Assembly (NCBI RefSeq): GCF_018860365.1
Contig: NZ_JAHKPO010000001.1
Span: forward strand, 248,001-312,000
Source: Arenibacter algicola
GTDB taxonomy: Bacteria > Bacteroidota > Bacteroidia > Flavobacteriales > Flavobacteriaceae
DNA length: 64,000 nt
Reading direction: 5' to 3'
Shown: piece after piece, positions 1,503-1,663 of the stretch
Layout of the letters: every line of letters starts with the position of its first letter
Numbering within the stretch: position 1 is the first letter of the stretch
Notes under the pieces: model-generated
The model's database searches: none
What the model was told of the DNA's origin: nothing
The model's input: the letters and a program-made list of their open reading frames with translations, nothing else
Translations under genes and position numbers: made by a program

Positions 1503-1512
1503 AAATCCTTTC
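1503..1512 (-). promoter_or_regulatory. metK ribosome-binding site inside a switchable hairpin
   Basis: The minus strand reads AAAGGATTT directly before the metK ATG. The GGATTT part (1508-1503) is perfectly complementary to AAATCC at 1535-1530. The same AAATCC belongs to a nine-base strand (1538-1530) that can instead pair with the aptamer loop at 1657-1649. Pairing with the first would bury the ribosome site; pairing with the second would free it. Complementarity is seen directly; the switching is inferred. Confidence 0.6.
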
Positions 1513-1592
1513 TAAATAAAAATTAATAGGGATTTGACCAAGAACACTAGAGAAGAGTTGATGTTACAGTTCCAACGGAACAGAACAACTTA

Positions 1593-1663
1593 AACTGCTT
1601 TAGCATTTAGTTATGCCGAAACTAATTCAGCACATGAGGTTGCAATCAGTCAAATCCTTCCTC
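1593..1663 (-). ncRNA. SAM-II riboswitch aptamer in the metK leader
   Basis: On the minus strand, P1 is GAGG (1663-1660) with CCTC (1639-1636), enclosing a loop that carries the SAM-II signatures GATTTG and ATTGCAA. The downstream conserved GCTAAA (1604-1599) starts the second pseudoknot strand. GC pairs with GC, a T-T and a T-A follow, and then GACTG (1651-1647) pairs with CAGTT (1597-1593). This is the order expected for SAM-II. The linker between P1 and the pseudoknot holds an extra 7-bp hairpin, TGCTGAA (1632-1626) with TTCGGCA (1620-1614). Known SAM-II aptamers bind SAM and are used before methionine-pathway genes. Confidence 0.82.

Follow-up and report, generated by a model that had tools for sequence, protein, structure and literature searches.

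Most SAM-II riboswitches are predicted to terminate transcription (PMC2258182, PMC6061858), and direct occlusion of the ribosome site, as in metX, is found in a minority. The metX SAM-II (2QWY, PMC10907184) and SAM-V (PMC6061858) share an H-type pseudoknot that binds SAM, and both turn translation off with SAM; the Shine-Dalgarno (SD) sequence lies inside or adjacent to the pseudoknot. The ribosomes of Bacteroidia do not recognize SD sequences, and the structure of the start region tunes initiation (PMC6847099, PMC9976891). Thus, a pseudoknot that hides an SD sequence in the style of metX (PMC10907184) is not expected to work in these bacteria, and the textbook translational riboswitch that hides an SD sequence cannot work there as drawn. 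Long-loop SAM-II elements are on record for Bacteroidetes and for marine samples (PMC2864571). As we propose here for metK, the SAM-II of Sinorhizobium meliloti metA regulates translation from a remote start codon; the SD sequence is in the riboswitch, the start codon is 74 nt away, and an aptamer-mimic strand is not among the features described in the portions of PMC9373788 on which we draw.

We analyzed a 64,000-nt stretch of Arenibacter algicola DNA (NZ_JAHKPO010000001.1, positions 248,001 to 312,000), here called the window, in which a SAM-II element precedes metK. A first-pass annotation of this leader had stated that most SAM-II elements hide the ribosome site within the pseudoknot, which the literature cited above contradicts. 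As in metX SAM-II and SAM-V, translation is predicted to be off with SAM. In contrast to both, some 90 nt separate the pseudoknot from the start codon downstream of it, no SD sequence is involved, and an intermediate strand would relay the signal. In the open literature that we searched, we found no description of an expression platform for Bacteroidota SAM-II. Our best reading is that the novelty is a translational, SD-independent expression platform for an already known aptamer.

A SAM-II aptamer precedes metK

All features described here are on the minus strand. The first-pass annotation had recognized a SAM-II aptamer, and cmscan places one, in the long-loop form (RF01726), at 1590 to 1669; it scores 54.4 bits, above the gathering score of 44. 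The match is full-length (model positions 1 to 60), and the P1 stem, the conserved loop, and the 3′ pseudoknot strand are all there. The aptamer ends 88 nt upstream of metK (246 to 1502; ATG at 1502 to 1500), an open reading frame for a SAM synthetase of 418 amino acids with many Bacteroidota relatives at 68 to 99% identity. metK is directly downstream, which gives the element a SAM-metabolism context. By its score, its parts, and this context, the element is an ordinary SAM-II, and it is predicted to bind SAM. It shares its aptamer, the GAUUUGACUGAUUGCAACC core, the AUGCUAAAGCAG 3′ strand, and the metK context with the described long-loop SAM-II elements. The RF01726 model stops at the end of the aptamer, and the downstream anti-aptamer strand and start-codon copy are not described in the papers on which we draw.

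Within the aptamer, sequence and fold assign GGATTTGAC (1649 to 1657), here strand 1, to the 5′ half, comprising the loop and the 5′ side of pseudoknot P2. The 3′ half, ATGCTAAAGCAGT (1594 to 1606), provides the 3′ side of P2 in the RF01726 alignment. In the long loop that links P1 to the 3′ pseudoknot strand, a hairpin (1612 to 1634) is predicted, which is an insert in that alignment. Downstream of the aptamer, a hairpin with a GTTCC/GGAAC core (1560 to 1589) separates it from the anti-aptamer elements in both the free and the bound folds. Upstream, we read a putative promoter −7 element, TACTTTTG (1679 to 1686), from the sequence. It fits the Bacteroidota −7 promoter consensus, TANNTTTG, and its position suggests that the transcript starts just upstream of the aptamer.

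We found no intrinsic terminator between the aptamer and metK in a simple consensus scan of 1300 to 1760. In that scan, the platform shows no terminator of the kind found in the transcription-terminating metZ type. Unlike in the metX type, neither an SD sequence nor the start region lies within or beside the pseudoknot.

Two alternative folds are predicted for the leader

The first-pass annotation had pointed out that GTCAAATCC (1538 to 1530) is the nine-nucleotide complement of the aptamer strand GGATTTGAC (1657 to 1649) and that its last six bases, AAATCC, are complementary to GGATTT (1508 to 1503). We found that these segments and both complementarities are exact. GTCAAATCC is the core of a longer anti-aptamer strand, strand 3 (TTGGTCAAATCC, 1530 to 1541), defined by complementarity, fold, and covariation, and the pairing of strand 1 can be extended to 1646. 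GGATTT (1503 to 1508), here strand 4, abuts the start codon and belongs to AAGGATTT, in which 8 nt of aptamer sequence are repeated.

When the whole leader is folded without constraints, the minimum free energy structure (−40.8 kcal/mol) contains a 12-bp helix of GGAUUUGACUGA and UUGGUCAAAUCC, and the aptamer is lost. With the aptamer core imposed, the fold has −30.5 kcal/mol, P2 and SAM not counted, and AAAUCC:GGAUUU forms at the start codon.

We found an exact aptamer complement of at least 9 nt in 61/5,000 dinucleotide shuffles of the tail (about 1.2%); in 27/5,000, the start site had six complementary nucleotides in addition. The duplex energy of this leader is ordinary relative to shuffles (z, −0.48; not significant). 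A nine-base match in a single leader, expected by chance at about 1%, is modest evidence. The case for the anti-aptamer strand rests on the relatives.

The anti-aptamer strand covaries with the aptamer across Flavobacteriaceae

We found SAM-II in 373 of 397 Flavobacteriaceae genomes. We collected 148 SAM-II loci, and the 140 that stand before metK are the sample for all family statistics. When the sequence from the aptamer to the start codon was compared with its own shuffles, the mean duplex z across the 140 leaders was −2.3, and in 57 of them at most 1 in 100 shuffles matched the real duplex energy. Exact matches of at least 9 nt occurred in 43/140 leaders (expected, 1.3%) and of at least 8 nt in 69/140 (expected, 6.2%). 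The mean duplex z was about −1.8 at 23 loci of the same class that lie outside Flavobacteriaceae.

The two strands change together. At the aptamer position two nucleotides 5′ of AUUUG, G stands opposite C in 34/37 cases, A opposite U in 17/26, and U opposite A in 3/4. To control for relatedness, we chose ten non-overlapping, phylogenetically independent contrasts on the metK tree. Watson-Crick cells made up 16/20 with each strand's own partner and 1/20 with partners swapped, and swapping cost the whole duplex a mean of 6.2 kcal/mol per leader pair (Wilcoxon P = 0.004). In one leader (L139), an aptamer with an extra G (ATTTGGTC) is accompanied by a near-perfect anti-aptamer strand with an extra C (GACCAAAT), and the duplex z is −8.2. 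Flagellimonas flava, with GGATAGATTTGAC and GTCAAATCTTATCC, is a named example; it comes from a scan of named genomes with a strict core pattern, which missed SAM-II elements and serves for examples only. These data are strong evidence that an anti-aptamer strand is widespread in Flavobacteriaceae metK leaders and covaries with the aptamer. The first-pass annotation had called for covariation among all three segments; it is present between strands 1 and 3; strands 3 and 4 show no two-sided covariation, as described below.

In some small Flavobacteriaceae genomes, SAM-II stands before a metY-like gene and is accompanied by a GTCAAATC anti-aptamer strand (L020, L087, and L054). The start codon is more distant in L020 and L087.

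A second element probably pairs with the 3′ pseudoknot strand

The earlier reading had not included a further element, CTTCTCTAG (1547 to 1555), whose potential partner is the 3′ pseudoknot strand (TGCTAAAG). It is a copy of the motif CTTCYYTAG, which we found in 64/140 tails against 3.7 expected from mononucleotide shuffles, the motif having been picked after inspection. All 18 congeners carry it, and the copy in this leader is at 1555 to 1547. A recurrent register pairs it with the pseudoknot sequence UGCUAAAGCAGU as ACU:AGU plus CUUU:AAAG with one fixed mismatch, and leaders with AAAGGCAG tend to carry CCUU in the second element. By duplex energy the element is weak (mean z, −0.98; this leader, −0.03). 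We therefore regard CTTCTCTAG as only a probable second anti-aptamer strand. It would lie within the helix of strands 1 and 3, and both pseudoknot halves would then be held apart without SAM. We also considered the P1 strand GAGGAAG as the partner of CTTCYYTAG. Visual inspection showed a poor fit, and such a pairing would cross the helix of strands 1 and 3; the 3′ pseudoknot strand is the better match.

The TAG of CTTCTCTAG closes a 19-codon frame, MLKQFKLFCSVGTVTSTLL (1606 to 1547), that begins within the pseudoknot at the ATG in ATGCTAAAGCAG, and several congeners have similar frames. We rejected it as an upstream open reading frame. It is different in L047 and shifted in L034, where it has 45 codons and overruns the metK start, and frame lengths are scattered across the family. 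Because the frame is shifted in other congeners, it is probably not a conserved leader peptide.

Closure of the start region is predicted in part of the leaders

We next consider the start codon. GGATTT had been read as holding the ribosome site. It is not an SD site, as the ribosomes of Bacteroidia do not recognize SD sequences (PMC6847099, PMC9976891); the target would be the start-codon region itself. We calculated the cost of opening a window from −16 to +3 in the free and bound models, with 10 shuffles of the upstream sequence per leader. In these energies, which disregard the pseudoknot, SAM, Mg2+, and cotranscriptional folding, the cost for this leader rises from 3.6 kcal/mol in the free model to 7.3 kcal/mol in the bound model, a shift matched by 2/10 shuffles. 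The bound fold gives five AAAUCC:GGAUUU pairs probabilities of 0.81 to 0.97 and the outermost pair 0.22.

Across the 140 leaders, the opening energy is up by a mean of 2.37 kcal/mol in the bound model versus 0.38 kcal/mol with shuffled upstream sequence, and 62 leaders beat all ten of their shuffles. The predicted closure exceeds 1.5 kcal/mol in only 76/140, so the calculation supports the translational model for only some of the leaders. In these 76, the start window pairs mainly with strand 3 in 37 leaders and with a strand located upstream of strand 3 in 33.

In 12 of the 18 congeners, the ATG is immediately preceded by AAGGATTT, which is identical to aptamer sequence (the aptamer of one of the 12 differs slightly). 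AAAUNC:GGAUUU was predicted in the bound fold of 11/11 GGATTT leaders that were folded, and strand 3 was the main partner in 12/12. All six strand 3:4 pairs are standard in the 10 distinct aligned rows of the clade; the changes are one-sided, in strand 3, and pairing is kept through G-U. Since strand 4 is invariant in the clade, AAATCC:GGATTT has no compensatory changes and no two-sided covariation. The start hairpin can also be extended internally, by CAATA/TATTG in L045 and by CTA/TAG or TTAA/TTAG here; as the registers differ, we did not count this as covariation.

GGATTT is absent from the other six congeners (L032, L033, L035, L036, L047, and L048), where the predicted partners are other or unclear. 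In these leaders, other sequences are predicted to form the OFF pairing, and thus the platform appears to turn over within the genus. The opening shift is positive in 18/18 congeners, at 2 to 7.5 kcal/mol. We conclude that AAATCC:GGATTT is a local, clade-specific solution. The toggle proposed in the first-pass annotation is probably right for the clade of the window, but its start-site partner is not general.

The other half of the aptamer is copied in other genera

A general search for aptamer copies of at least 8 nt before the start codon found 14 against 4.1 expected, a moderate excess, and 10 of the 14 are the clade's AAGGATTT. A test specific for AAAGCA was much stronger: this hexamer stands shortly before the ATG in 21/140 leaders against 1.4 expected, a significance that is overstated because the hexamer was picked after data inspection. 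We found that 20 of these 21 leaders carry TGCTTT 1 to 3 nt after the aptamer. Leaders with TGCTTT and AAAGCA span about a dozen other genera (about 13). AAAGCA also occurs within the 3′ pseudoknot strand, so TGCTTT can pair with either the aptamer AAAGCA or the start-codon copy. The TGCTTT:AAAGCA hairpin forms in the folded bound tails, and both arms change together in L011 and L025.

Judged from these pairings, this mirror-image device follows the same logic as the leader in the window but copies the opposite half of the aptamer. The 5′ half is copied as AAGGATTT in the window clade, and the 3′ half is copied as AAAGCA in about a dozen other genera. Copies of both halves, in different leaders, are the strongest hint we have of a principle of aptamer mimicry at the start codon.

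Proposed mechanism and alternatives

We consider it probable that the element, as a SAM-II riboswitch, represses metK translation by way of an indirect platform, with strand 3 toggling between strand 1 and strand 4. Strand 3 (1541 to 1530) would have two mutually exclusive partners, strand 1 in the aptamer and strand 4, its copy at the start codon. At low SAM, strand 3 would pair with strand 1, undoing the pseudoknot and leaving the start region open (ON), and CTTCTCTAG would probably pair with the 3′ half of the aptamer and help to undo the pseudoknot. We infer that SAM captures the aptamer during transcription, which would free strand 3. The freed strand would then pair with GGATTT at the start codon and close the start (OFF). 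Other Flavobacteriaceae would retain the anti-aptamer logic and close the start otherwise, one widespread version being the AAAGCA copy with its TGCTTT toggle. In classical anti-sequestor riboswitches (translational TPP, AdoCbl, and SAM-I), the anti strand pairs with either the aptamer or the expression platform. Here, in contrast, a SAM-II pseudoknot serves as the aptamer, and what is sequestered would be a copy of aptamer sequence and not an SD sequence.

We think it unlikely that the anti-aptamer strand is real and the start-site pairing in the clade incidental, with SAM acting, for example, through RNA stability, Rho, or occlusion of a standby region. This would account for the six congeners that lack AAATCC:GGATTT, for its want of two-sided covariation, and for a predicted closure above 1.5 kcal/mol in only 76/140 relatives. 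It would not account for a positive opening shift in every congener, for the 62 leaders above all of their shuffles, or for an independent mirror device predicted to close the start elsewhere, in roughly a dozen genera. Transcription attenuation, in which the SAM-bound form exposes a terminator, is predicted for most alpha- and betaproteobacterial SAM-II elements (PMC2258182, PMC6061858). We judge it improbable here: our consensus scan shows nothing resembling an intrinsic terminator from the aptamer to metK, the OFF hairpin has ATGGCAT in place of a U run at its end, and only 28/140 leaders have T6 or longer in their last 45 nt.

Chance complementarity in A+T-rich DNA, with no alternative fold, is very improbable. 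The ordinary duplex energy of the single leader agrees with it, but the family-wide excess and the phylogenetically controlled covariation do not, and the covariation of strands 1 and 3 already contradicts it. The distance from the 3′ pseudoknot strand to the start codon and the failure of Bacteroidia ribosomes to recognize SD sequences (PMC9976891) leave scarcely any room for direct occlusion of the ribosome site by the pseudoknot itself, known from the alphaproteobacterial metX SAM-II (PMC10907184).

We prefer the toggle of strand 3 between the aptamer and the start codon. These leaders suggest that a compact pseudoknot aptamer can control translation when a mimic of the aptamer toggles the secondary structure of the start codon. 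A broader reading, which we advance tentatively and rate a little short of even, is that Bacteroidota SAM-II overall uses an SD-independent mimicry platform, in which the start codon bears a copy of one aptamer half and a toggle strand chooses between the true half and the copy; the aptamer would be fixed and the platform reinvented repeatedly. The proposed toggle offers a guide for locating expression platforms in a phylum whose riboswitch output is hard to predict, and it makes the question concrete and testable in Flavobacterium johnsoniae. One aptamer with several interchangeable outputs would also be useful for studying riboswitch evolution.

The same genome has two SAM-I (S-box) riboswitches, at 62 to 170 of the window and at G000:C28:233286-233439, both on the minus strand, and metK uses SAM-II. 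One SAM-I site stands before a metY-like gene (446 amino acids), and the other is near a methionine synthase (metH-like) gene. A 2007 survey found no species with both the SAM-I and SAM-II classes (PMC2258182).
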